Assembly (NCBI GenBank): GCA_018457135.1
Contig: JAGGDU010000052.1
Span: forward strand, 1-48,720
DNA: 48,720 nucleotides
Reading direction: 5' to 3'
Source: Trichodesmium erythraeum GBRTRLIN201
GTDB taxonomy: Bacteria > Cyanobacteriota > Cyanobacteriia > Cyanobacteriales > Microcoleaceae
The translations under genes and the position numbers were made by a program. Shown here piece after piece: positions 25,746 to 40,064 of the stretch (positions are counted from its first letter, which is position 1; each line of letters opens with the position of its first letter). The notes under the pieces were generated by a model. The model did not search any database and was not told the origin of the DNA. It was given only the letters and a program-made list of their open reading frames with translations.

Positions 25746-26006
25746 CATTCTCCCCAGCTATTAGTTTGGGGTAGTCTTACAATCTAAAGCTAATAAAATA
25801 CGGATTGACCTTTATCTTAGTCTACTCCAAAGGTTGGCCCTAGTCAAACCCCTTGAAGTGCATTTCTGTTTTTATCCTAGAATACTCACAAACAACTAAC
25901 TGAAACTAGAGTTTATATTAACATATTTATTCAAAAAAAACAACTAATAAATTGTCTGCTTATGAGAAAGACTTTAAACCAAATTTTTTGCTAAACTACC
26001 ATTCTT

Positions 26007-26972
26007 CTAAATGCTCACTGAATTTTTGTTGTCTGTCACAATAGAACGCATACCTTCTAAAGTTGCTGGAATATTTCGAGGGTCCATAAACATAACTTTA
26101 CTACTTTCACTAGTACCAATTTTTTGACCCATATCCAGATAATTTTGAGCCAATAAAAATTCGAGTGCCTCCTTTGCATTGGGGTCTTTACGGAGAGTCT
26201 TAGTAATAATTTCTAATGCTTCAGCAGTTGCTTGAGCTTTCAATACCTGAGATTGACGTTCAGCTTGAGCCTTCAAGACAATTGCTTTTTGTTGTGCTTC
26301 TGCTTCTAAAACAGTTGCCTTTTGACGTGCTTGAGCATCAAGAACTTGTGATTCTGCTCTACCTCTGGCAGAGTTAATAGCAGAATCTCTTTCCCCTTCT
26401 GAAGTTAAAATTGCTGCCCGTTTTTTTCGTTCTGCAGTCATTTGTAATTCCATAGAATCTTGTACTGCTTTTGATGGGCTAATATCTCGTAACTCTACCC
26501 TAGTTACTTTTACTCCCCAAGGGTCAGTAGCAATGTCTAATTCTCTGAGTAATACCTCATTAATTTCCGTGCGAGCTGTAAAAGTTTGGTCTAATTCTAA
26601 TTTACCCATTTCTGCCCGAATTTGAGTTAAAACTAAATTAGTCATTGCAGATTGGAGATTTTCTACTTTATAGTAAGCTTTCTCCATATCCATAATTCGC
26701 CAATAAACTACAGCATCTACACTAATTGCTACATTATCTCTAGTAATACATGGTTGAGGTTTAATATCTAATACTTTTTCACGAATAGTTTCTTGATAAG
26801 AAATTTTATCTAAAAATGGTATAATAAGTTTCAAACCAGCATCTAATTTTCTGCCGTTATATCTACCTAAAGTTTCAACCAAAGCTTCATTGCCTTGATT
26901 AATAACTTTGACACTTCCTGCTAAACTTGAACCACCTAAAACTAAAAATACAAGTAAAAAAAACTGTTGCAT
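26007..26972 (-). CDS. SPFH/band 7 (stomatin/paraslipin-like) membrane protein
   Basis: The 321-aa protein has an N-terminal membrane segment (residues about 2-20), then an SPFH (band 7) domain: [58 protein letters not shown] and [20 protein letters not shown] long alanine/glutamine-rich coiled coil with repeated [26 protein letters not shown] follows. This layout matches the paraslipin/QmcA group, which forms membrane rings linked to membrane quality control. The NfeD-like gene 180 bp upstream on the same strand is the classic partner of SPFH proteins, so they probably act together. The precise function is unknown. Confidence 0.92.
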
Positions 26973-27152
26973 TTTTCATCTCCTAATTATCTAAATTATA
27001 AGATTTATCTAAATTAATGCTACACTTGGATTTTCCTAAAAACTACTACAAATATCATAGAGGTGAGTTAAGAATAAAATTACCTCAATAAATAGTATTT
27101 AGAGATCGAAAATATTAAGTATAGCAAAATTTTTAAGGATTTGTATTAGCTG

Positions 27153-27617
27153 TTATTTCAATTGATTTTGGTTGGGAAGATAAACTGAAGAATTTAATAA
27201 ATTTTCTGGCAATATAAATAAAGTATTACCTTCTCGTCTAAGGACAATAACTTTTTCTTGAGCAGGAATCATAATATCTTGATCGTCACATTTAGCTCGC
27301 CAAGAATTACCTTCATAGAGTACTCTACCAGGCTGACCTGGTAATATTTCTGTTAAAGTTTCTCCTTCCTTGGAATCAGCAATAATAGCTATTTTACGGT
27401 GGGGCAACAGATAACGGAAAGCAAAAATAGAAGCTACAGAAAAAATCATCCACAAGGCTACCTGTAAACTCACACTAGGAATTAAGAGGGACACAAGTGC
27501 CACAACAAAGGCACTCAGTCCCATCATAAATTCAACAAAAGCCGTGGGCACAAAGAATTCTAAAAAACAAAGTGTTGCCCCAGCTAGTAACCAAAATATA
27601 GTTGGATTTAATAGCAC
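27153..27617 (-). CDS. NfeD-family membrane protein
   Basis: The 154-aa protein starts with three closely spaced membrane segments (about 8-26, 28-47 and 50-70: FWLLAGATLCFLEFFVPTAF, FMMGLSAFVVALVSLLI, VALWMIFSVASIFAFRYLL). A small C-terminal OB-fold domain follows (about 85-140), with GQPGRVLYEGNSWRA and AQEKVIVLRREGNTLFI. This is the short NfeD form that lacks the protease domain. It is followed by the SPFH gene in the same direction, the common NfeD/stomatin operon order. NfeD proteins are thought to help SPFH partners organise membrane domains. Confidence 0.9.
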   Translation of the reverse strand: MLLNPTIFWLLAGATLCFLEFFVPTAFVEFMMGLSAFVVALVSLLIPSVSLQVALWMIFSVASIFAFRYLLPHRKIAIIADSKEGETLTEILPGQPGRVLYEGNSWRAKCDDQDIMIPAQEKVIVLRREGNTLFILPENLLNSSVYLPNQNQLK

Positions 27618-27936
27618 GGATAAATAGGATCAGTGAGATTAAAGAAGTTATCAGCGGTTAGTATTTAACAAAATTAGCAAAAGCATTTTTTTTTAGGCTA
27701 AACAGGAGATTTCAACCCTGTCTAAAACATCTAGTACAAAAGTTAACAGGGATTTTCACCCATAGCTGCTCAAAGTCGAACATTCCGGTATGGAGGCATT
27801 AATAACTGTTTGGTTTTCACTAATTATTTTTGTGGACAACTTGTGCAGATTCATTTGTTTCTTAAGTGGCTTAGGAGCATCAACTTTTTCAGCATATAGG
27901 GAACCCTAGTATTTTTTTTTAGTCTGAATACTGGCT
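27618..27936. other. Spacer without a convincing gene
   Basis: A 39-codon plus-strand ORF with one hydrophobic segment starts at 27791 (MEALITVWFSLIIFVDNLC) and ends at 27910. It has no ribosome-binding site and matches no family I know, so I do not call it. Nothing else is visible. Confidence 0.35.
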
Positions 27937-28167
27937 TTAAACCCATTTATTTTGTGCCTCAAAAACCTTAAATGCTACTAATAAATAGTATAATAGTATA
28001 TTTATAAAACCAAAACAAATAAAAGTTAGCCTATAGGGGTAAGGCTTCAAACCCAATAATTTTTCGGTAAGATTGATCAAGGCAAGTTCTATTTTAATAT
28101 ATCTTTGCGCTTTGACCTTAAAAAAGTCCTCTGAAAACCTCCTAAGTAATTTATTTATTAAAAGCAA
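27937..28167 (-). CDS. Possible small membrane protein, 76 aa
   Basis: The ORF has a basic N-terminal half (LRRFSEDFFKVKAQRYIKIEL), then YPYRLTFICFGFINILLYYLLVAF, one likely membrane helix, and the polar end KVFEAQNKWV. The residue mix is more protein-like than most AT-rich shadows, and the ORF lies divergent from the phosphatase gene with about 110 bp between. I know no family for it. Real gene or chance ORF are both possible. Confidence 0.35.
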   Translation of the reverse strand: MLLINKLLRRFSEDFFKVKAQRYIKIELALINLTEKLLGLKPYPYRLTFICFGFINILLYYLLVAFKVFEAQNKWV

Positions 28168-28276
28168 AAAAACAATACCAACACGAAAATTATCAAATTA
28201 ATTTTTAAATAGTAAAACTTTTGACTTCATAAAGAGTAAATTGTATTACTTTTGATTTTTGACTTAATTCCCAACT

Positions 28277-30214
28277 ATGATTAATTCTGCGCCAATAATT
28301 CATTGTCCAAATATTAATTGTTCTAGTGTTTCTCACTCTTGGGATCAGGAAGAGTGTGAAGCTTGCCAAACTAAATTAATCTATCGCTATTTATGGGCAG
28401 TTGCTCCAAAAGTCGAGATTTCTGTAGGGGAGTTATTGGGCGATCGCTACTATGTTGTAGCTCCACAAGTTTGGCTAGATACGAAGCCTGGTGAACCTCC
28501 ATTTATGCACGAGGAATTTCCAGATTATATTATGCCTTATCTACGCTTATATCCTGAGAGGCTTCATACACCAGATGTATATGGTTTTTATCAGTATGGA
28601 GAAGAAACATATCCTACAGATATTCTATTATTAGATAATGTTCCTCTGGACTCTAAAGGTAATTTGCTTCCTAGTCTTGTAGAAGCTTGGCCCACAGCAA
28701 GTCCTGTACGTCAGGTCTACTGGTTGTGGCAAATGATGCAATTATGGAAACCTCTATCAGAAGAGCGTGTAGCTTTTAGTTTATTGACCAATAATTTACG
28801 GGTGGAAGATTGGCGATTACGATTGTTAGAGTTAAACCTAGAAACCCGTAAAACTAAACTTAGAGATTTTAAGATTTTTTGGTCAAATTTGCTTCCGACA
28901 GCTCATCCTAACGTTCAACAACCATTGACAGAGATTTGTCATATGATTAGTGATATTGGGGAATCTTTAGAGGCGATCGCTCCGAAATTAAACCAACTAC
29001 TATTAGAACAGGCAGCCAAATTACCATTAAAATCCGATATCATGGGGGCGACGGATACAGGTCCCGTGCGTATGCATAATGAAGACTGTTGTTATCCTAC
29101 AGAAGAGGACTTAAATAGTAATCAACTAGTGCCCAATTTAGCAATAATTTGTGATGGAGTGGGTGGCCATGATGGCGGAGAGGTAGCTAGTCAACTTGCA
29201 GTACAATCAATAAAAAAATTAGTTCAAAATTTATTAATAGAGGTAGAGCAACAAGAGGAGTTAACATCCCCAAACTTAGTCAATAAACAACTAGAGGAAA
29301 TTATTCGGGTAGTCAATAATATGATTGCTACGGAGAATGATGAACAAGGAAGAGAGTCTCGACAGCGCATGGGTACAACACTAGCCATGGCATTACAGTT
29401 ACCCCAACAGGTGAAACCTTCCCCAGAATCTAGTCCAAATAATGCCCATGAGTTATATATAGTTCATGTGGGAGATAGTCGTGCTTATTGGTTAAGTAGA
29501 AATACTTGTCAGTTGTTGACTGTGGATGATAATGTTGCTTCTAGAGAAGTTGGTTTGGGTCATTGTTTGTATTGGCAGGGTTTAAAACGTCGTGATGGTG
29601 GTGCCTTGACTCAGGCTTTGGGTACAAGAGATGGGGAGTTTATTTATCCTACTATTCAAAGATTTTTGATCGAACAAGAGGGGATATTACTTTTATGTTC
29701 CGATGGCCTGAGTGATAATAATTGGGTTGAGAATTCTTGGGCTGAATATGCTTCTAAAGTTTTCCAGGGTGAAATTTCTCTAAAACAGGGGGTAGAGTCT
29801 TTAATTGAGCTGGCGAATCATAAAAATGGTCATGATAATACTTCGGTGGTGCTTGTCCACTATCGTCTTTCTCCAGAGAAGTTAATCTTATCTAATATTC
29901 CTACAGTAACAACTCCAGAAAAGGAAATTTTAATGACAGAATTGTCTGAGGCTTCTAAAGAGCTTCTTTACAATAATGATGAAGAAGTATCAGAAGCTGA
30001 GTCTGAATTTCAGTTGGAACCTGTCCAAAATTTTTTCTGGTTAAAACCCTGGATGTGTATGATGGGTGTCTTATTTATCTTGTTGGTGGGGGCAATTATA
30101 TCGGTATGGCGCAATTGGGAAAATTTTCAGTCAACTCCTAGGGATAGTCCTGCACCTTGGGAGAGTCCTATGAGACCTGAGCCTTCAGAAACTAGAATTT
30201 CTCCTAGTTCTTAA
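28277..30214 (+). CDS. PP2C-family serine/threonine phosphatase with N-terminal zinc ribbon and C-terminal membrane anchor
   Basis: The 645-aa protein starts with a zinc-ribbon-like CPNINC...CEAC (residues 10-33). A region of about 200 residues resembling the front part of cyanobacterial PP2C proteins follows, and then the catalytic domain (about 255-530). Its PP2C motifs are GATDTGPVRMHNEDC, IICDGVGGHDGGEVAS (metal-binding Asp), RMGTTLAMAL, IVHVGDSRAYWL, GALTQALG, LLLCSDGLSDN and GHDNTSVVLV. All metal-binding aspartates appear to be present. One transmembrane helix lies near 590-610 (MCMMGVLFILLVGAIISVW), before a proline-rich tail, which suggests the enzyme is anchored to the membrane. It probably reverses Ser/Thr phosphorylation set by Hanks-type kinases; no kinase is adjacent. 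ftrV follows in the same direction. Confidence 0.93.
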   Translation: MINSAPIIHCPNINCSSVSHSWDQEECEACQTKLIYRYLWAVAPKVEISVGELLGDRYYVVAPQVWLDTKPGEPPFMHEEFPDYIMPYLRLYPERLHTPDVYGFYQYGEETYPTDILLLDNVPLDSKGNLLPSLVEAWPTASPVRQVYWLWQMMQLWKPLSEERVAFSLLTNNLRVEDWRLRLLELNLETRKTKLRDFKIFWSNLLPTAHPNVQQPLTEICHMISDIGESLEAIAPKLNQLLLEQAAKLPLKSDIMGATDTGPVRMHNEDCCYPTEEDLNSNQLVPNLAIICDGVGGHDGGEVASQLAVQSIKKLVQNLLIEVEQQEELTSPNLVNKQLEEIIRVVNNMIATENDEQGRESRQRMGTTLAMALQLPQQVKPSPESSPNNAHELYIVHVGDSRAYWLSRNTCQLLTVDDNVASREVGLGHCLYWQGLKRRDGGALTQALGTRDGEFIYPTIQRFLIEQEGILLLCSDGLSDNNWVENSWAEYASKVFQGEISLKQGVESLIELANHKNGHDNTSVVLVHYRLSPEKLILSNIPTVTTPEKEILMTELSEASKELLYNNDEEVSEAESEFQLEPVQNFFWLKPWMCMMGVLFILLVGAIISVWRNWENFQSTPRDSPAPWESPMRPEPSETRISPSS

Positions 30215-30336
30215 TCCTTATTTGAGGGTTTTTAACAGTAAGTTTTATGCAAAAATAAGAAAATTGTTAAATAAGCTTGTAATTTCTTCTTGGAGTTGCA
30301 TAAAAATTTATCAGAGAGAATAGTAGAAGGTTTTAT

Positions 30337-30558
30337 ATGAAATTAGGCGATCGTGTTCGCGTTAATAGTTCTGTTGTTGTTTACATTCATCCTGAACATA
30401 AAGGACAACCATTTGATATTAAAGATCACGAAGGAGAAGTGATTAATATTATCAATGAATGGAAAGGTAGACCAGTTAGTGCGAATTTACCAATTCTTGT
30501 CAAATTTACAAAATTTAAAGTTCATCTTAAGGAGGAGGAGTTAGAAATAATCTCATAA
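30337..30558 (+). CDS. ftrV: Ferredoxin-thioredoxin reductase, variable chain
   Basis: FtrV is the small, SH3-like beta-barrel subunit that supports the catalytic FtrC chain in passing electrons from photosynthetically reduced ferredoxin to thioredoxin. The 73-aa sequence is characteristic: MKLGDRVRVNSSVVVYIHPEH, then GEV and EWKGRPVSANLPILVKF, then KFKVHLKEEELEII. The ATG is preceded by AGAAGG, a reasonable ribosome-binding site. It lies 122 bp downstream of the phosphatase gene in the same direction. A hairpin with T-rich sequence after the stop probably ends the transcript. Confidence 0.93.
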   Translation: MKLGDRVRVNSSVVVYIHPEHKGQPFDIKDHEGEVINIINEWKGRPVSANLPILVKFTKFKVHLKEEELEIIS

Positions 30559-30573
30559 GTTGAGGTGAATACT

Positions 30574-30608
30574 AATGGGGTTTATGTAGGGCTGTCCCCA
30601 TTTATTGA
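30574..30608 (+). terminator. Likely terminator downstream of ftrV
   Basis: AATGGGG (30574-30580) pairs with CCCCATT (30596-30602), and a T-rich run follows. The loop is long at 15 bases. A TTTA/ATTT simple repeat extends to about 30636. Confidence 0.5.
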
Positions 30609-30661
30609 TTTATTTGTTTATTTATTTATTTATTGAATAGATTATAGAGGTTATATTTGAG

Positions 30662-30691
30662 TTGTAGCAACTTGATAAATTCTTGCTACAA
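30662..30691. repeat. 9-bp inverted repeat
   Basis: TTGTAGCAA (30662-30670) and TTGCTACAA (30683-30691) form a perfect 9-bp stem with a 12-base loop. There is no T-run, so it is probably not a terminator. Confidence 0.6.
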
Positions 30692-30751
30692 ATATTTAGG
30701 GTTTGATCTTCTTTATCTTTTTCAGGAGTAGGAGAATAGGGAGGTGGGTAG

Positions 30752-30771
30752 GGACGTTGCATGCAACGTCC
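30752..30771. repeat. 20-bp perfect palindrome, a dispersed cyanobacterial repeat
   Basis: GGACGTTGCATGCAACGTCC is its own reverse complement. From memory, this sequence with GTAG/CTAC flanks is scattered in many copies through Nostoc- and Oscillatoria-type genomes. Only one copy lies in this window. The surrounding 30603-31242 stretch has no gene I can support. Confidence 0.65.
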
Positions 30772-31242
30772 TATAGAAAAACAGGGAATTTATAGAAGAG
30801 GTAGTTGAATGTATTTTTTCCTTGTGGCCTTTTTCAGTGATCTCCCCAAAATATTATTTTTTAAAGCTCTAGAGCGCCAAAAATAGATGTTTGTTGGGAA
30901 TCCAGCAATGCTAAAATCTCTATATTTCAATGCTTTTATCTTTCATCAGCAAGCCCTACTTAGGCTGCTTCTAGTGCTTATTCATAGCACAATATGATTC
31001 AGTTAAGGATTTTTTTTGAAGTTCTGCAAAATTTAAAGGCTCATAATTCTGGTTCTATTGTTTAGTTGCAAATTTTAGTAATATTATTTTTGTCTGACTT
31101 CTTTTTGGTTTAAACTCAGATTCTTTAATTTAAAGTGTAGTGCAAAAATACCGTAAGAAAAGGAGCACGATTAATTAAGTATTAATACTGAAAGTCAGGA
31201 TAAGTTGGCGCAAGTAAAATACATAAAAAAAATAGTTGGCAA

Positions 31243-31446
31243 ATGGCTAATAAAAGTCCCTGGAGGCTAAAATTTGATGGAAAAATTCACTCTTGGAAGA
31301 GGGGAGCGATCGCCTATCACCAATTTCAGATTTTCTGGCATTTAGCTATTTACAACTGTCCAGACCCAAATTTGTTTTTTTTTGAGGTTACACAAACTTT
31401 TTTATTGATCAAGGGTAAGCAGTTTCAGGAGCTCAAAGTTCTCTAG
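31243..31446 (+). CDS. Doubtful small ORF, 67 aa
   Basis: The ORF begins MANKSPWRLKFDGKIHSW, contains a HIP1 octamer and ends KGKQFQELKVL. There is no clear ribosome-binding site, membrane segment or known motif. It lies in a gene-poor stretch and may be a chance ORF or a gene remnant. Confidence 0.25.
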   Translation: MANKSPWRLKFDGKIHSWKRGAIAYHQFQIFWHLAIYNCPDPNLFFFEVTQTFLLIKGKQFQELKVL

Positions 31447-32157
31447 TTTGAATATATGCTTGGTGCAAGCTGTACCCAGTTAAGCAGGGTCCAAGGGGTT
31501 AAGTCATTAGCGAGCTCTAAATATTCTAATATAGTTATTTTAAATAGATGATTAGCAACATTTTACACCTAGATGTAATTTACGCGATGTTCTATGTTTA
31601 CCAAAATCTATGAGTTTTGGTTTTCTATTTACGAACAGGAGTAAGTTTTAACGCCTGTCTGTAGAATATACTGCGGTGGGAAAAACTTGGTATCATTAGT
31701 CTAACTGGTATCACAATATTTAACTTTCTCAAATTACGGGATACGTTACTATGGTTTGGCACAGGTAAATCTAGTTTCCTCAAGTCAGATAAAAATTATC
31801 CTTTGTGTTTGTCCTCATGCTGCTATCAAGTAGAAATTCCATAACCCAGTTGCTGTTAGGATTAAGATTAATTTGTGCTCAAAATTATCTTGATGACTAT
31901 GTTAAATTTAACTAATAGCTCTATAACGCTTGATGCCTGCAAACGCATTTTCATATACTCACCTTGGCTCTTCTTAATTTCTGATTCTCCAATTATTGTT
32001 TTACTTTAGGTTTTTTATGGGTAATACAGATGTTTTCATATTAGTTTTGGAGACCTTGGAAACCACTTATAAGTTCTATCCAAATCTTCACAGGCATATC
32101 TCTTTCAGAGGAAGCTGGGTAGTCTGAAGGAGTTATCGTTGCAGAAACAGAATGTAA
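31447..32157. other. Non-coding stretch before the CRISPR-like array
   Basis: I see no gene and no remnant of cas genes. At 32103-32119 the sequence TTTCAGAGGAAGCTGGG resembles the 3' half of the array repeat and may be a further, eroded copy. Confidence 0.4.
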
Positions 32158-32404
32158 GTTTCCATTAATTCCGCTTCAGGCGAAACTGGGGATAAACGTT
32201 AAAGGTGATTATTTTGATCCGTATTTAGAGGACAGGTTTCCATTAATTCCGCTTCAGGCAAAGCTGGGGGGGAACCAAAAAGGAGGCAGGTGCTTAACGT
32301 TTCTATTAATTCCGCTTCAGGCAAAGCTGGGGCGGAGTATAATTAGCCTATTCAGGGAGTTGATAGAATATTTCCAATTAATTCCGCTTTAGGTGAAGCT
32401 GGGG
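32158..32404 (-). CRISPR. Small orphan CRISPR-like array, four repeats
   Basis: Four repeats of about 34 nt start at 32158, 32236, 32299 and 32370. They share GTTTC(C/T)ATTAATTCCG followed by CTTCAGGC(G/A)AA(A/G)CTGGGG; the fourth has one extra base and four changes. Unrelated spacers of 44, 29 and 37 nt lie between. On the minus strand the repeat begins CCCCAGCTTTGCCTGAAG and ends GGAATTAATGGAAAC, the GAAAC end typical of type I and III CRISPR repeats, so I assign the minus strand. Uneven spacers and a diverged end repeat suggest a decaying array. No cas gene is in the window. The alternative is an ordinary dispersed tandem repeat. Confidence 0.6.
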
Positions 32405-32971
32405 GGATCTACGATTTTAAAACACAACACAGCAATACTTTCAGACCCCCAAATATACTCACTCCTTTGATAAAAAAGTCAATATAGCAGTTTTTACTAA
32501 AATAATAGCCCTCAAATCCAATCCCAGTATGGGAAAAACGCAAGTCAACGAGATAATCAGAGTTTCAGCAATTCTGGGATGTGAGTATGTCAGGTTTTCA
32601 TGAAGATAAAAAAACTACTCTAAATTACTTCTAATAAGCTATAAATTACTAAAAAGATATTGCCATTTATTTTTTAAATTTATTTATACTATAAAACTTA
32701 CTTTTTATCTGACCTATAAGAATACGAATTGTCAATCCATAAACAATATATTTTTTGTGGAAAATGGTAATAGAATTTGGGCTAACTTTTTACTTAGAGA
32801 AGTAGGAGATACATTGAATTGAATTGTGCATTTACCCCGTTTTTTGCTGAACCTCTATTTTTTTAGTTGCCTGTGCATATTTCTAGTTTGTATAAACCTA
32901 TTACTATCATTCTGAAATAGATAAATTTTTTAGTTTTGATGATAAGTAATATTAATACTATACCACAAAAA
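32405..32971. other. Non-coding stretch beside the CRISPR-like array
   Basis: No gene is visible. If the array is read on the minus strand, its leader would lie here, just above 32404. The sequence is AT-rich, as leaders usually are, but has no feature I can name. Confidence 0.35.
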
Positions 32972-33004
32972 GTCACAGGAGTGACAAGGGTGACAGCCGT
33001 GACA
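32972..33004. repeat. Three 9-bp tandem GTGACA units with an inverted copy
   Basis: GTGACA occurs at 32981, 32990 and 32999, with an exact 9-bp period. GTCAC at 32972 is the inverse of the first unit. The cluster lies about 45 bp upstream of a small ORF with a good ribosome-binding site. It could be an operator or chance. Confidence 0.6.
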
Positions 33005-33050
33005 AAATCAAAAGTTCCATGATCAGACAAAATTAATAGGAGATATACCT

Positions 33051-33203
33051 ATGAAGACACCAATAGAAGTTATGAGTGCTTTCCAAAGTCTCCAAAATCA
33101 ATATAAAAATATCTGTATTCCCCATAAAAAAGTGAAGGGAAGACAATTAAGGGAAAAACAAAAATTGGAAAATCAGAAATTAAGAATAGTCAAGGATAGT
33201 TGA
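33051..33203 (+). CDS. Possible small basic protein, 50 aa
   Basis: The ORF starts at an ATG preceded by AGGAGA, the best ribosome-binding site in this region, and codes for MKTPIEVMSAFQSLQNQYKN, then a strongly basic, helical tail with KKVKGRQLREKQKLENQ. It is too short for any family I recognise. Tandem 9-bp repeats precede it. It could be a small DNA-binding or regulatory protein, or the 5' remnant of a longer gene. Confidence 0.4.
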   Translation: MKTPIEVMSAFQSLQNQYKNICIPHKKVKGRQLREKQKLENQKLRIVKDS

Positions 33204-33889
33204 TAAAAATGCGTTCAAGTCCCCCGATGGACGAGGGAGGGTTTCAACCTAATTTTTCGGTAACTTGTTTTATGGATATAATTAATATTAATTACAACTA
33301 CATTCTCTTAAGAACACTTATCATCAGAATAGTTGCCCAAAAAAATATGTAAATTCAGTATAATATTTTGTATTAAACAAAAAGAGGAAAAAAGTAGGTA
33401 GATAGATGGACCCAAAGAGTAGAAGATTTATGATAATGAGTCTTGGCTAATTAGCTATCAAATTATTAGCATATAAAGGTTTTAGCTTCTTAGGATTAAA
33501 AAAAAGTGCCAGCTTTTCGATTGTTTAAACTCAAGAAGTTAACCTTTTGATCAGACAATAGCAGAAAAATCATGGGATAAATATATCTAGATACCTCTGA
33601 GTTAATTCAATACAGTTCAAATAAGAAAAAAAACTTATAAGGCATGGAACCAAAATTATGGGCTTTTGAGCTAGCATAAATCGGGCAAAAAATCCTTAAA
33701 TAAAGCGTATTGCTTTATAATTCCTATTTATCCTTACTCTTTAAAAAAAACAAAAAAAAGTAATCCTTAATGAAATATATTCTGGATAAGTTTAAGAGAT
33801 AAGTTTCTACTTAAAAATTAGATATTAAATAATCACAAAAAATATAATATTATTCCAGAATTTGTCCTATCAGCTTCTAGGAAAAAATT
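33204..33889. other. Non-coding stretch upstream of the TPR gene
   Basis: I see no gene or repeat that I can support in this AT-rich stretch. The TPR gene promoter should lie at its right end. Confidence 0.35.
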
Positions 33890-35584
33890 ATGAGCAAAAC
33901 TCATGCTAAATCATCGGAAAAATTGACATTTTTAACTACATTAAATACTAAAAATAATCAAACTATTTCCTCTTCTAAGGGAATTTTTAGCATCTTTTCT
34001 GCGTTCCCAGAATATGACCGTGGTAACAGACTGTATGAAATGGGTAGATACGAGTCAGCTATTCCCTACTACGAAAATGCAGTGAAAATAAAGCCAGACT
34101 GGGCTATAGGTTGGTTAAAACTAGCTGAGGCCTTATCTAAATTGCAAAAGTATGAACAAGCAGTAGAGGCTTATAAAAGATCCCTATCTCTCAAACAAAA
34201 CGCTCATCAAGCTTGGCATAGTTATGGAGTTGTATTATCTAATTTAAAGCAGTATGAGCAAGCGATCGCTTGCTTTGACAAAGCAATTAAAATTAATCCA
34301 AATGATTATCAATCATGGTTTAATAAAGCAATTATTTTAAGCGAATTAAAACAAGATTTACCTGCGATATACTGCTACAAAGAAGCACTAAAAATACAAC
34401 CTATGAAGGGAGAAATTTGGTATGGTCAAGGTCAAGCATTATTAAATGTGCAAAAATATGCTGAAGCATTAGCAGCTTATGATTGTGCTGCGAAGCTGCA
34501 ACCTGATAATTATGATATTTGGTTTAAGAGAGGATTAGCTTTATTTCAAACTCAACGTTATGCAGAAGCAGTTATCAGTTATGGCCACGCTATAGAATTA
34601 CAACCAGAGAATTATCTAGGTTGGTTTAACTTAGGTATTGCTCAAAGTAAACTACATAAATATCACGATGCAGTCTCTTCTTTTAATAAGGCAATTAAAT
34701 TAAATCCTGATGATTATGAAGCTTGGTATTATAAAGGATTAGCTTTAAAAAATCATTGGAAAGAAGGAGGAGTTGCTTGTTTAGATAAGGCAATTAATTT
34801 TAACCCTAATTTACCAGAAATTTGGATTAGTCGTGGTTATATTTTATTAGATTTATTTAAATATCGTGAGGCATTAGAGTCTTTTAATAAGGCAATTACA
34901 ATTAACTCTAATTATCCCGAATCTTGGTTAGGTAGAGGTAAAGCATGGATGGCTCTAGGTAAATATAATGAAGCTCTTATTGCTTATGGTAATGCTGTTA
35001 GTATTGAGCCATATTTTTTAGAGGCTTGGAATTGTCGAGGTGAAGCATTAGAAAGAGTCCAAAATTATGATCAAGCATTGGCAGCTTATGACAAAGTGAT
35101 AAAAATGAGTTTTGAGCAAGGAGTTTCTGTTGCTAAAGTAGGTTTACAGAGAGGAGCAGCTTTAGAAAAGTTAGAGCGATATCCTGAAGCAATAGAAGCT
35201 TATAATTTGGTAATTGAAAAACAACCAAATAATTTTGATGGTTGGTTAAACCGGGGATTAAACTTAGAAAAAATGGCAAATTATGAAGAAGCTGTTTTGA
35301 GTTATAGTCGAGCTATTAGTATATGGCCTAGTAATTATCAAGCTTGGTTACAATTAGCTTTAATGCTGGAAAAATTAGAGAGGTTAGATGAAGCGATCGT
35401 TGCCTATAACAAAATCATTTCTTTAAGGCCTGGTAATCATGAAACTTGGTTGAAAAGAGGATTAATTCTGGAAAGATTAGGATATGTTCAAGAAGCTGTT
35501 AGTTCTTACAAAATTGTATTAGAAATTAAACCTGACTATCACGAAGCAATTGAAAGAAAAAAACGATTAGAATTAACTGTTTAA
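33890..35584 (+). CDS. Tetratricopeptide (TPR) repeat protein, 564 aa
   Basis: After about 45 polar N-terminal residues the protein consists almost wholly of about 15 TPR units of 34 residues. Each follows the pattern W...G..L..L.(K/R)Y.EA...Y..A(I/L)...P. There is no signal peptide, membrane helix or enzymatic domain. TPR arrays form a curved scaffold for protein binding, so this is probably a cytoplasmic adaptor with an unknown partner. One spacer between units (KMSFEQGVSVAKVG, near residue 404) breaks the regular 34-residue period. The gene stands alone, with no ribosome-binding site of note upstream of the ATG. Confidence 0.9.
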   Translation: MSKTHAKSSEKLTFLTTLNTKNNQTISSSKGIFSIFSAFPEYDRGNRLYEMGRYESAIPYYENAVKIKPDWAIGWLKLAEALSKLQKYEQAVEAYKRSLSLKQNAHQAWHSYGVVLSNLKQYEQAIACFDKAIKINPNDYQSWFNKAIILSELKQDLPAIYCYKEALKIQPMKGEIWYGQGQALLNVQKYAEALAAYDCAAKLQPDNYDIWFKRGLALFQTQRYAEAVISYGHAIELQPENYLGWFNLGIAQSKLHKYHDAVSSFNKAIKLNPDDYEAWYYKGLALKNHWKEGGVACLDKAINFNPNLPEIWISRGYILLDLFKYREALESFNKAITINSNYPESWLGRGKAWMALGKYNEALIAYGNAVSIEPYFLEAWNCRGEALERVQNYDQALAAYDKVIKMSFEQGVSVAKVGLQRGAALEKLERYPEAIEAYNLVIEKQPNNFDGWLNRGLNLEKMANYEEAVLSYSRAISIWPSNYQAWLQLALMLEKLERLDEAIVAYNKIISLRPGNHETWLKRGLILERLGYVQEAVSSYKIVLEIKPDYHEAIERKKRLELTV

Positions 35585-35639
35585 TTTAATTTTGAGTAGT
35601 ATTTGAGGCGGTAGATAATCCTTAAATTAGATCAAATCC

Positions 35640-36230
35640 AGATCATTTATTATAGGTCTGTAGAGTGTACCTTATCTATACAAGTCCATCAATTTAAATA
35701 TAGATTCGGTTAAAAGCTTCCGTCTATTATTGAGCAGTACCAAACAATAATTGTATAGTCAATAGTAATTTAATGGGGGTATCACTATAGATATTTGATG
35801 CTCTCCTACGTCTAGTTTTCTGTTGCTTTACCCAATGTTCTATTACTTCATCATAAGCACCAAAATATAAGACTTCCTCTCTGCTTTAGAGAAGCACCAT
35901 ACTGAGACTAGTTGCTGAGGAACTACTTGTATTTGGACTTCGACTTAACTAATATCTAACCTTGGAGTAGTTTTTTTTCTGCTAAACAATTTTTTTGACC
36001 CTATTTACTTTCTTTTCGCAAAAAAGCCGGTCTGCAGCTACTGGAACGTAGTGGAAGGGAGCAATTATCTTCGGTGGGCCAATAGTTTTTCCTATTGTCG
36101 CCATGATAACTTTTCCGTAGACTTTGGTGTTGTATCAAAGGTGAAGTAAAGAATACTACAAAAAGGTCTCCCTGATCTTGGTCTTAATTTCCCCTAACTA
36201 TTCGTCATTAGGAGGAAAAGTCTTCCTATC
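35640..36230 (-). pseudogene. Decayed IS5-type transposase
   Basis: On the minus strand, about 35850-35730 reads EVIEHWVKQQKTRRRRASN, then IYSDTPIKLLLTIQLLFGTAQ, two stops, and TEAFNRIYI. This parallels the start of IS5-type transposases (W...(K)RGRP..YSD.AI...L.(I/L)..LF...(R)QTEGF). Upstream minus-strand sequence to about 36230 is open only in short pieces that I cannot identify. The DDE part is missing. Confidence 0.55.
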
Positions 36231-36277
36231 TTATCAACTTTGAAATTAAACTTCTTTCTTCCTTTTTATTTCTTCCT

Positions 36278-37060
36278 TTAACTAGAAGCACTTGTATAAT
36301 AGCGCAGAGCGAGTCGCCAAAATTGAATAGAGGCAAAAAATAATCCGCCTGCTAAAACAAAAGAACCCAATATCCAAGTACTTCCAGCCTTACCTAATAT
36401 GGTTTGAGCTGGTACAGTAGTTAAAAATGCCACTGGTACTAGAAAAGTGAAGAAGAAACGATAAGCAGTAGGGTAAGCTACTATTGGATATCTTCCTGCT
36501 CCTAATAAACCTCTGAGGACTTCTGTTAAGTTATAAATTTTGACAAACCAAATACTGGTAGAGCCCAGGATAAACCAGATACTATAAAGAATAATTATCC
36601 CACAGACCATTGGAAGTATGGTAAGCAAATAATTGCTTATTCCTAAACCAAGTTTACTACCGGCATATTCTAAGAGGAACCCGCCAAAAATTATGTCTAG
36701 TATTCCCCAGGGAGAAATTGTGCGAGTAGAAAGCAAAAATTGACTACTAATGGGTTTGAGAAGGACAAAATCTAGGGTACCTTCTTGTACCTGCTTCACA
36801 ATTCGGTTTAAACTAGGAATCAAAAAAGTTGCTGAAAGACCCTGTAAAATGGTAAAAATTGCTAGGATAATTAAAGATTCTTCCCAATTCCAACCTTGAA
36901 ATTTGTAGCCTGTTCTATAGAATAGAAGTAAACTAAATAAGCTACCTAGTAAACCTCCTATGCTGCTAATGGCTGCGATCATAAAGTTGAAACGGTATTC
37001 TAATTCAGCCGCAATAGCTGCACTCCAAAATAATTTTAGTACTTGTAAGTATCGTTTCAT
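36278..37060 (-). CDS. ABC-2 type transporter permease
   Basis: This is a 260-aa integral membrane protein with about six helices. Segments visible include FMIAAISSIGGLLGSLFSLLLFY, LIILAIFTILQGLSATFLI, LLTILPMVCGIIILYSIWFIL, FFFTFLVPVAFLTTVPA and ILGSFVLAGGLFF. The cytoplasmic loop NRIVKQVQEGTLDFVLLKPIS is the hallmark of the ABC-2 permease subfamily that works in pairs with a second permease and an ATPase. The substrate cannot be predicted. No ATPase or partner permease is in the window, so the other parts must be encoded elsewhere. Purine-rich GGAAGAAA repeats directly follow its stop codon. Confidence 0.9.
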   Translation of the reverse strand: MKRYLQVLKLFWSAAIAAELEYRFNFMIAAISSIGGLLGSLFSLLLFYRTGYKFQGWNWEESLIILAIFTILQGLSATFLIPSLNRIVKQVQEGTLDFVLLKPISSQFLLSTRTISPWGILDIIFGGFLLEYAGSKLGLGISNYLLTILPMVCGIIILYSIWFILGSTSIWFVKIYNLTEVLRGLLGAGRYPIVAYPTAYRFFFTFLVPVAFLTTVPAQTILGKAGSTWILGSFVLAGGLFFASIQFWRLALRYYTSASS

Positions 37061-37315
37061 TGTGACTTAATTGAAAGTAAAATAATAGCAGCAAGTAAAT
37101 TGAACCCAATTCTATCTTACTTCTGTCTGTAAGAGGAATTCATAAATTCCCCCTACTATTAATTTTGTTATGTTTTGGACAACAAAATTGGTAACTAGAA
37201 AAGTAAGAAATAGTTTTGATCAGATGAGAGAATAGGTAATTAGATCAAATAGTTATTTACAAGAAGTTCTATCAATATATTGATGTGCTTCCTATTTCTT
37301 CCTTTTTCTTTCCTT

Positions 37316-37897
37316 CTAATTAGATGTTAAAAGTACAAAATCAGTTACTTTACCTCCACTATAACTCCGCCAATATTCTGATACTTGAAAAAGCTTTTCG
37401 TTTGACTGAATTTGATTCATAATTGGGATAGTTTGTGGGGGATAATTTATTTCTTGGTTAGGTTGATTTTTCCTGAGATTTGCAACTAAGTTTTCCATAA
37501 ATTCATATCCGTCACAAAAAGCATTTGGAGGTTCACCTATTTGTCCATCTGTATAAGCAACTCCTGCTAGATAAATTATATTTTCATAAAAAGAATGTGA
37601 ATCCATTTGATATAAGTACCTGCGTAATTTTAAAGGTGATGGTGCGATTAAATAGACATTTTTACAGTCAGGTTCAGCACACATTAATTCATCCCAATTT
37701 TTGTAAGATTGTAGGGTTTCTCCTGACTCTAATGTATAACCTAAAGCCAGCTGCATTTCATCTAATAATTCTGTTTCCCAATAATTTTTAGATATTCGTT
37801 CAAGCCAATAGTGTATAGTATTATAAAATTCTATGTCTGATAAGGAAAGTAATGCCTCTTTGACAGCATCAGTGTATAGTTTTGTTTTTAATTTCAT
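37316..37897 (-). CDS. Hypothetical protein, 193 aa
   Basis: I do not recognise this protein. It is soluble and acidic to neutral, with several aromatic and cysteine residues: FYNTIHYWLERISKNYWETE near the start, MCAEPDCKNVYLIAPSPLKL in the middle, and NAFCDGYEFMENLVANLRK later. It has no signal peptide or repeat. The codon pattern and the length without stops support a real gene. A clear GGGGGTAAT-type ribosome-binding site precedes the ATG (GGGGG at about 37905-37909, seen as CCCCC on the plus strand). It is followed by purine-rich repeats and then the ABC-2 permease in the same direction, 255 bp away. Confidence 0.6.
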   Translation of the reverse strand: MKLKTKLYTDAVKEALLSLSDIEFYNTIHYWLERISKNYWETELLDEMQLALGYTLESGETLQSYKNWDELMCAEPDCKNVYLIAPSPLKLRRYLYQMDSHSFYENIIYLAGVAYTDGQIGEPPNAFCDGYEFMENLVANLRKNQPNQEINYPPQTIPIMNQIQSNEKLFQVSEYWRSYSGGKVTDFVLLTSN

Positions 37898-38975
37898 AGT
37901 ATTACCCCCTTTTTTTGTTTGTTTAATCGACTTTGACTTAGTTTAATTAATTGGCTTTTCTCAGGTAGATAAGTAGTATTACAAAATTATTTACCTATTT
38001 TAATCTTTGCCCTCGTAATTAAAGCAAAGAATTCAGCTTGTATAGATGTGTAATTAATTTTTTAACACCACTTATCCTTCAAGATTAACTATAAATATTT
38101 CGCAGTTTTCTGCTTGTATAGGAAGCAGAAAAGGATGATTTTACTTCCTTCTTAAAGAGCTGAGTTATCCTTTGCATGTCTTGTCTATAAGACTGAAAAA
38201 TTTCCTTCTCACCTGGTTTGTTATTTCCTCTATTTTTTTGTTCTTCTAGAATGACTATTGATGTTGTTTATCCCTACCGATAAACCGATAGGGTTTTGGT
38301 ATAAATCTCTAGTGAGTCAAGAAACTGTATCATATATGATACTGTTGCTACAATTTTCAACACTCCTCAGACAAGAGGTCCATCTACTATTTTATATTTA
38401 GGATGGGATTCAGAGTAGATAATTTATACGCCAAAACTAAAATCCTAGTATATAAATAAATTTTTGTCAATCATTTTTTGAGTTTATCGTATTGATTTTT
38501 TATTTGTAATTAATAGATTATGGAATAACTATACAGATCAACAGCTAACTAATAAGTAATAATTAATACCTGTTTCATAAACTTGAAATTTTACTGGTAA
38601 ATAAATCTATTAAGCTTGAAAGCTAAGAGCTCAAGTTATATTTAGTCTAACTTTAGGAAATTGCTATAAAATGACTATTACCCAACCTATGATCACACTA
38701 ATAAATTTTTAAAAGATATTACTTCTTGAAAGGCTCAGGTCAAAATATTTCTTGAAGCATCACTTTTTTGGGTGTTGGTAAATTAGGGTATGGTTTTTTC
38801 AATAAGCCCAGTTGAACTTCAATACAATTTTCTCGATGTTAATCAATTCATATTCATAAAAATGAAAAAAAAGAAAGGAAAACAATGATTAAGTCTAAAT
38901 CTATGTTGGTTGTGAGTAGAAGACCTTTTTTAGACTACTATCAAACACAAAGAAGCTATTGAGATGATCTAAAAC
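37898..38975. other. 1.1-kb non-coding stretch
   Basis: I see no gene. A small hairpin (CCCTACCG...CGATAGGG, followed by TTTT) lies at about 38272-38297 and looks like a terminator for plus-strand transcription, but no plus-strand gene precedes it. Confidence 0.4.
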
Positions 38976-39510
38976 ATGAATTACGTCGATGGCATGGTTT
39001 TTTTTGGTCAGTTAAAAGGCATAAGTCCTCTGGCAATTATCAATTGTATAAATAAGTAGGAAAATTATTACAAAAAAGCTTATGAGCTGGAAACAATTGT
39101 TCAAGTGGGAGAATTAGAGGAACTAGAAGTCTCTGTGAGATCAAAAAAAAACAAAATTTTGCTCTCAAAAGTTGTAGCTCCTATATGAAAAAGTCATAAA
39201 AGGAAGGTTACTTGAAGATCATTGCGTCGAAACCTTCCAACTATTATGGGAAATAGTGGATCTCAAGGAGATGCTACTTTGACGTCACTGATGGCTGGAA
39301 AGTTACTCCAAGTTTTCTTCCGGATGGAGTTGTTAGCAAAATTTACATCAGTTGAGTTGAGGGAGAAAACACCAAAGTATGAGATAATCTTGCTTGCTCA
39401 AAGAAAAACCCTTTGTTGCTCTAAGTCTGAAATGATGCTGAGAAATTCAGTGAGTCAATAATCTCACTATCTCAAATTTAGAAGTGTTCCTATACCTTAT
39501 ACTGAGAAGA
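38976..39510 (+). pseudogene. Decayed IS1-family transposase, C-terminal two thirds
   Basis: Pieces in different plus-strand frames follow the IS1 transposase closely. They are LKGISPLAIINCINK, YELETIVQVGELEELE, then RSKKNKILL, ETFQLLWEIVD, VTDGWKVTPSFLPDG, QRKTLCCSKSEMMLRNS and HYLKFRSVPIPY. Normal IS1 proteins read VGELDELETFVGSKKNKIW, VTDGW and RKTLCYSKS at these places. At least four frameshifts or stops and some small deletions make it inactive. No terminal inverted repeats are clear. The N-terminal part, of which two copies exist at 1.8-2.2 kb, is missing here. Confidence 0.8.
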
Positions 39511-40064
39511 CTCAGCAATTTAAGCACGAAACAGCGGTCGCATTTTTTCCTAGTCATATCTTCATTTACCAATGCTTTTTTTTGAATTTGATAATAATAT
39601 GTGGATGGTTGTTGAAAAATGATGATTTGTTGAGCTTTGACATTTACAACTATTCTCAAATTTACAGTGCTTTTGTTCCCTTATGAGGTATAGTAACAGT
39701 AATGAGTAAATTCATAAAATAATTATGTTTCATAGACGATCGCTAAAGTTAAAATAATAATTTGGTGATATTGCTTATCTACACCTTTACTAATAAAGAT
39801 TATTTTTTTTTACAAACGGTCAAGTTTTCACTGAGTGAATATCTTTACCTCTCCATCTCATAATAGTTTTCAGTTGCTTCTTACCCCGTGAGCTTACAAA
39901 TTCAAACCAAAAACTGAGTTTATTGCTATAAGTATGATTTTTCACGACTCTTGGGAAAGTTGTTGTTATAAAACGATCCTAATAAAGATAAAAAAGATCA
40001 TTTTGTTACAAATACTTGAGGACAGTTATAGTAAATTAAGATTCTAAGCCATTCTAAAGTATCA
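39511..40064. other. Non-coding stretch upstream of the glycosidase gene
   Basis: No gene is visible. The promoter of the following gene should lie at the right end. Nothing else stands out. Confidence 0.35.

Follow-up and report, generated by a model that had tools for sequence, protein, structure and literature searches.

The CRISPR-like array at positions 32158-32404 is very probably what remains of a type III-B CRISPR array, a fossil without function whose system has been lost. The window, that is, the whole stretch of DNA that was analysed, comprises 48,720 nucleotides and corresponds to the complete contig C52; the genome to which it belongs has 241 contigs with 7,221,323 bases in total and was rated 99.97% complete. 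The repeats and the leader of the array belong to families that are found in relatives, and both carry an excess of changes. The -10 box of the leader has lost its A, the trailer end of the array is cut, and the Cas queries found no match in the genome. The array is probably neither transcribed nor processed now. The coordinates of all features are collected in Table 1.

The species assignment of the genome was based solely on FutA, which is identical in 316 of 316 residues (G000:C179) to PDB 6G7N, whereas the corresponding proteins of the relatives G005 and G006 have lower scores and many differing sites. According to PMC6254336, 6G7N is Tery_3377 of T. erythraeum. Webb et al. (2023, PMC9950141) report CRISPRs in T. 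thiebautii, Okeania, Hydrocoleum, and non-fixing Trichodesmium; they report them in none of ten T. erythraeum assemblies, the closed IMS101 genome being completely without such a system. No report of T. erythraeum arrays or relics was found in a literature search by title and the start of the abstract, with most subscription papers lying outside that search; PMC8867640 speaks of retroelements. The loss of CRISPR-Cas in T. erythraeum, a marine cyanobacterium that forms blooms, has so far been inferred from absence, and the fossil array with its leader gives direct sequence evidence that this lineage once possessed such immunity and later lost it. The fossil also marks the genomic place, and the divergence of leader and spacers between strains could serve as a clock for the loss.

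Table 1. Positions of the array, its leader, and the neighbouring dispersed repeat in the window
Feature	Position	Strand	Evidence
Dispersed-repeat fragment, ending where R0 is cut	31817..32102	.	Homology search; inverted copy at 33040-33215
R0, 3' half (plus-strand reading) of a fifth, trailer-end repeat; other half missing	32104..32122	-	17/19 to repeat half; dispersed-repeat homology stops at 32102
Spacer S0 between R0 and R1, 35 nt	32123..32157	-	Read from sequence; within the 34-49 nt of intact arrays
Repeat R1	32158..32193	-	Direct-repeat and consensus search
Spacer S1, 42 nt	32194..32235	-	One frame, read by eye, gives NVKGDYFDPYLED; no phage match beyond chance
Repeat R2	32236..32271	-	Direct-repeat and consensus search
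Spacer S2, 27 nt, below any spacer of the intact arrays compared (34-49 nt)	32272..32298	-	
Repeat R3	32299..32334	-	Direct-repeat and consensus search
Spacer S3, 36 nt	32335..32370	-	Read from sequence
Repeat R4, leader-proximal	32371..32404	-	3 mismatches to 28-nt core vs 1, 1, 2 in R1-R3
Decayed leader, homologous to intact-array leaders in four relatives (G002-G005)	32405..32745	-	Leader alignment
Inverted-repeat arm ATACTCAC of leader	32455..32462	.	Leader alignment
Inverted-repeat arm GTGAGTAT, partner of 32455-32462; one pair type absent from the other 16 leaders	32581..32588	.	Leader alignment
-10 box TCAGAT, vs TANNAT in 15/15 other leaders with the region aligned	32707..32712	-	Simple promoter scan: no site
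-35 box TTGACA, intact	32730..32735	-	Leader alignment

A CRISPR array consists of direct repeats of approximately 23-50 nt that are separated by unique spacers of similar length. In the window, four direct repeat copies start at 32158, 32236, 32299, and 32371, with a spacing of 78, 63, and 72 nt, and a degenerate 28-nt consensus recovers exactly these four copies and none in each of 100 shuffles. The four-repeat CRISPR-like array described in the initial annotation is confirmed by these searches. The repeats are 34-36 nt long and span 32158-32404. With a repeat length of 36 nt, which was taken from the intact arrays of relatives, spacers S1-S3 measure 42, 27, and 36 nt. The earlier values were 44, 29, and 37 nt, of which the first two hold for a 34-nt repeat, while the third comes to 38 nt. 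The repeats had also been described as ending in GAAAC on the minus strand, which is true of R1-R3 but not of R4, ending in GGAAA. A partial fifth copy, suspected at 32103-32119, proved to be real. When the 3' half of the repeat (19 nt) is compared with both strands of the window, the top match lies at 32104 (17 of 19 positions, against 13 of 19 at most outside the array), and since this half repeat stands one spacer length (35 nt) before R1, at least five repeats were formerly present. The array is composed, then, of four repeats and a half repeat with spacers of 35, 42, 27, and 36 nt, all of them different, and it is accompanied by a leader (32405-32745) that is homologous to 16 other leaders. 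Intact arrays of this repeat family have spacers of 34-49 nt and start-to-start distances of 70-85 nt.

As for the origin of the spacers, the whole array had no match among plasmids (E up to 1e-5) or phages (E up to 1). When searched alone against phages with E up to 10, S1 returned 24 records (best E 0.8) and S3 returned one (best E 7); none covered 80% of the query, and they were taken as chance. The repeat pattern and a degenerate pattern of the S1 peptide had no match in viral contigs.

A dispersed intergenic repeat could mimic a CRISPR. Dispersed repeats are abundant in this genome, and fragments of one bracket the array. The initial annotation had considered that the repeat unit might lie scattered in many intergenic places without spacers, and the genome-wide search gave a different picture. 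With up to 2 mismatches allowed, seven sites match the 18-nt core: four in the array, two on contig C122, and one in a coding sequence, which we take to be that of ribosomal protein L11. Two clusters and one coding-sequence match in 7.2 Mb mean that, at these mismatch limits, the repeat is not scattered. Moreover, in relatives the same repeat forms genuine arrays, which have unique spacers and are accompanied by cas genes, and the leader is homologous to array leaders. A dispersed repeat is hardly conceivable against this evidence, unless copies too diverged for these limits are common; 32158-32404 is a true CRISPR. A repeat-pattern scan of the genome contigs found one contig. The strict pattern of the repeat family was present in 2 of 7 genomes of the genus, 2 of 61 of the family, and 2 of 388 of the order, the same two throughout, and these tallies are lower bounds, because the pattern is tied to the TGGG ending and misses arrays of relatives that were later found by means of the leader and looser cores.

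The cluster on C122 (L008:12795-13646, G000:C122) is a second relic, with three diverged copies at a spacing of 75 and 72 and without a leader. It adjoins a gene remnant, presumably of a DNA cytosine methyltransferase, whose DNA matches G003 and G002 at 88-89%, and the intact G002 protein aligns with the remnant in one frame at 71.7% over 212 residues and in a second frame at 57.9% over 38. As the methyltransferase homology begins at the end of the third repeat, the leader side is gone, presumably by rearrangement. Should the methyltransferase have been part of a restriction system, this contig would bear two defence loci that decayed side by side.

The comparison within the genus covered seven genomes, the genome itself included. 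On contig C648 of G003, there are two intact arrays of 58 and 41 identical repeats with the 5' core GTTTCCATTAATTCCGCTTC, and Cas1 and Cas10 genes lie between them. This Cas10 gene is 73-80% identical to Cas10b of G005, and the G005 Cas10 protein used as a query, together with two neighbours, matches the Cas10b, Cmr3, and Cmr4 models. The G003 arrays resemble the window in the first 20 nt of the repeat, which are the same as in R1 and R2, in the position of the hairpin GCTTC/GAAGC, and in the leader. However, their repeat ends in ACTAGAG instead of the TGGGG of the window, and there are zero differences among their copies. Six arrays of G002, with 2-36 repeats each, belong to the repeat family of the window; the arrays of G005 and G004 use other repeats. 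The closest repeat found is that of a relic in G005 (C301:8135-8400, in agreement with JAKQYF010000037.1 of Trichodesmium sp. MAG_R03), which also has four diverged copies and a partial leader. It differs from the window array in its setting: Cas10b-Cmr3-Cmr4 lie at a distance of 2.6 kb, and its genome has kept III-B genes. This relic (L019:8135-8600) is decayed, while the other G005 arrays examined are uniform and have another repeat. The type III-B arrays of T. thiebautii and its relatives, described in PMC9950141, come from the same genus, and the relatives examined share the leader and partly the repeat family; in contrast to these arrays, the window shows divergence among its repeats and a changed -10 box, and the Cas queries found no match in its genome. 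The flanks of the window array match contigs of relatives, with no flank-array junction among the matches listed.

The window leader of approximately 340 nt matches the 16 fully aligned array leaders at 67.7-73.6% over 291-405 nt, and this leader is common to arrays with differing repeats. The partial leaders on G006:C383 and G004:C314 and the leader of the G005 relic were left out of the alignment. The position of the leader sets the direction of transcription to the minus strand, which had been guessed from GAAAC and is now borne out. The promoter of the other leaders has the form TTGACA, 17 nt, TANNAT (15 of 15, with the -35 box beyond the aligned range in two and with the sixteenth leader, G002:C323, not included), which we take to be a promoter motif of sigma-70 form. 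A terminator-like hairpin was observed on the minus strand of the decayed leader at 32522-32534, one being found against 0.6 expected from shuffles.

The decay can be expressed in numbers. Per 36-nt repeat, the window shows a mean of 5.33 differences and C122 one of 7.33, compared with 0.00, 0.00, 0.25, 0.00, and 0.25 in five intact arrays, which were picked from a larger set and whose copies were counted with a core allowing up to 4 changes. The G002 arrays on C151 and C423, with one trailer-end copy of 5 core changes each, and on C89, with 2 repeats, were left out of this count, and the value for the G005 relic (15.0) was set aside because it is distorted by a misplaced start of the second copy. 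The repeats of the window are not near-identical, and for this reason the array is a relic. Single diverged trailer-end copies also occur in the otherwise uniform arrays on C151 and C423, where they are not next to the leader. In the window, it is the leader-adjacent repeat, R4, that is the most diverged. New repeat copies in live arrays are made at the leader end, so this speaks against recent spacer gain. The leader itself has changed at 20 of 145 columns that are invariant in the 15 others, while each other leader, in the same test, has changed at 0-4 of 125-129. Its terminal branch measures 0.40 substitutions per site, and the longest other branch measures 0.16, both the test and the tree being free of G002:C323.

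The trailer end is bordered by a dispersed repeat, whose copies at 31817-32102 and 33040-33215 are mutually inverted and bracket the array together with its leader. They match copies on C73, C20, C107, and C170 and in G003 at 67.9-78.6% among the matches listed. Several other copies continue past the point that corresponds to 32102, so the junction resembles a rearrangement and not the natural end of the element. The reading as a decaying array, one of two that had been offered at the outset, is supported by the repeat family, by the homologous leader, and by the excess of changes in both.

The other reading was that of an orphan array still in use. In that case, its transcript would be cut by Cas6 or by a nuclease of the host, and a Cas complex encoded at another place in the genome would take up the products. 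The repeat hairpins still partly fold and the -35 box is intact, and the presence of intact arrays in relatives that have no Cas6 match leaves room for processing by another nuclease. On the other hand, the own genome, at 99.97% completeness, had no match to RAMPs (PF03787; present in 6 of the 7 genus genomes), Cas1 (PF01867; 2 of 7), Cas6 (PF10040; 2 of 7), or the G005 Cas10 protein with E up to 1 (5 of 7, some weakly). These results do not weigh equally. G004 and G005 keep intact arrays without a Cas1 or Cas6 match, and G002 does so without Cas1; those two absences therefore prove little, and it is the RAMP and Cas10 negatives that carry weight. G001 has RAMPs and Cas1 and no match to the G005 Cas10, so a distant Cas10 could escape the query. 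With the effector queries unmatched, the -10 box altered, and the repeats and leader far more diverged than in intact arrays, continued use of the array has a very small probability, and the service by Cas proteins encoded elsewhere that had been proposed finds no support in these searches.

That no cas gene lies near the array, as had been noted before, agrees both with the null results of the genome-wide Cas queries and with a search for cas remnants. For the latter, open frames of at least 120 aa were collected from eight loci of relatives that bear CRISPRs, and none of these 88 frames gave a cas match at 26000-40000 of the window. Two weak matches near the array (E 5e-5 and 3e-4) were rejected as cas, since their source frames extend across an intact array and the similarity lies in the repeats themselves. 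Frames of G001:C466 and G002:C323 that match C122:14160-14750 were likewise set aside, the gene being, by its look, one for a repeat protein and not cas. No convincing cas remnant was found near either cluster. Among the relatives, G002, G004, G005, and G006 have RAMP genes (G002, G004, and G005 also intact arrays) and no Cas1 match, which could reflect either assembly gaps or arrays that are kept without a Cas1 of their own.

The fossil probably came about as follows. A T. erythraeum ancestor would have had III-B immunity, with its arrays read from the leader of approximately 340 nt that is common in the genus. The lost system would have been of type III-B and inherited from a common ancestor. 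By analogy with III-B systems, transcription of the live array would have run on the minus strand from approximately 32700, the transcript would have been cut at the repeats into crRNAs, and the crRNAs on a Cmr/Cas10 complex would have attacked transcribed phage or plasmid sequence. The loss of the cas genes would have come before the decay. Without new spacers and without selection on the crRNAs, the repeats, the leader, and its promoter would then have collected point changes, one or more of the spacers would have shrunk, and a rearrangement beside the dispersed repeat would have cut the trailer end.

The leader alignment exposes a covarying long-range inverted repeat that is common to the III-B leaders of the genus (e.g., L059:7155-7505 and L069:4441-4790; 32455-32588 in the window) and testable in species with live arrays. 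It is possible, although rather doubtful, that the leaders hold a conserved RNA or cruciform element, the stem of which is kept by compensatory changes across arrays with differing repeats and of which the T. erythraeum fossil bears a trace. For 17 leaders, RNAalifold predicted 56 pairs, the covariation term amounting to only -1.68 kcal/mol. The stem that was tested is the long-range RNAalifold stem of 16 pairs, a structure derived from the same alignment that was used for the test. In this stem, 93.8% of cells pair (87.3% in shuffles) and 16 cells are changed on both sides (5.7 in shuffles), and 0 of 500 shuffles reach either value; slid controls have 0-3 cells changed on both sides. Doubly changed pairs number 4 (3.0 in shuffles; 136/500) and further pair types 11 (10.0 in shuffles; 137/500), and neither measure exceeds the shuffles. 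When the stretch is folded alone, z reaches -3 or lower on the transcript strand of 9 of the 16 intact leaders and on the opposite strand of 10, while some leaders, e.g., that of G005:C57, fold no better than shuffles. As the folding signal is present on both strands, RNA and a DNA cruciform are not distinguishable. A third copy of the arm motif, seen by eye, stands between the two arms and varies partly in step with them, as if the arms might switch partners. The covariance models of Rfam 15, with E up to 1, had no match in five leader-bearing loci, including the window. If the element is real, it may set the frequency of array transcription or the site of entry of new spacers.

In the window leader, 14 of the 16 stem positions still pair, with one pair type of its own, and the plus strand folds with z of -3.34 over the 158-nt core and -1.60 over 216 nt. 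The retained pairing and the plus-strand fold suggest that the leader was constrained for part of its separate history, or that it drifted that way. They are also what would favour a relic without immune use in which the leader or the repeats are kept for another role, as an RNA or a DNA site. Such a role is very improbable, though, in view of the 20 of 145 conserved leader columns that have changed, the altered -10 box, and a transcript-strand fold that is no better than shuffles (z -1.03 over the 158-nt core and +0.24 over 216 nt). Hairpins of leader and repeat are said to occur, among other systems, at II-C arrays. Those of type VI, according to PMC13187072, are similar to the stem described here in that a structured leader RNA precedes the first repeat, but they block the first repeat, whereas the III-B stem lies inside the leader, approximately 50 nt from it.

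Finally, a more diverged copy of the leader was observed on G002:C323 (L068:5191 onward) beside an array whose repeat is entirely different; other RAMP genes lie on the same contig. To judge from this arrangement, it looks as if leaders and repeats may have recombined between systems.
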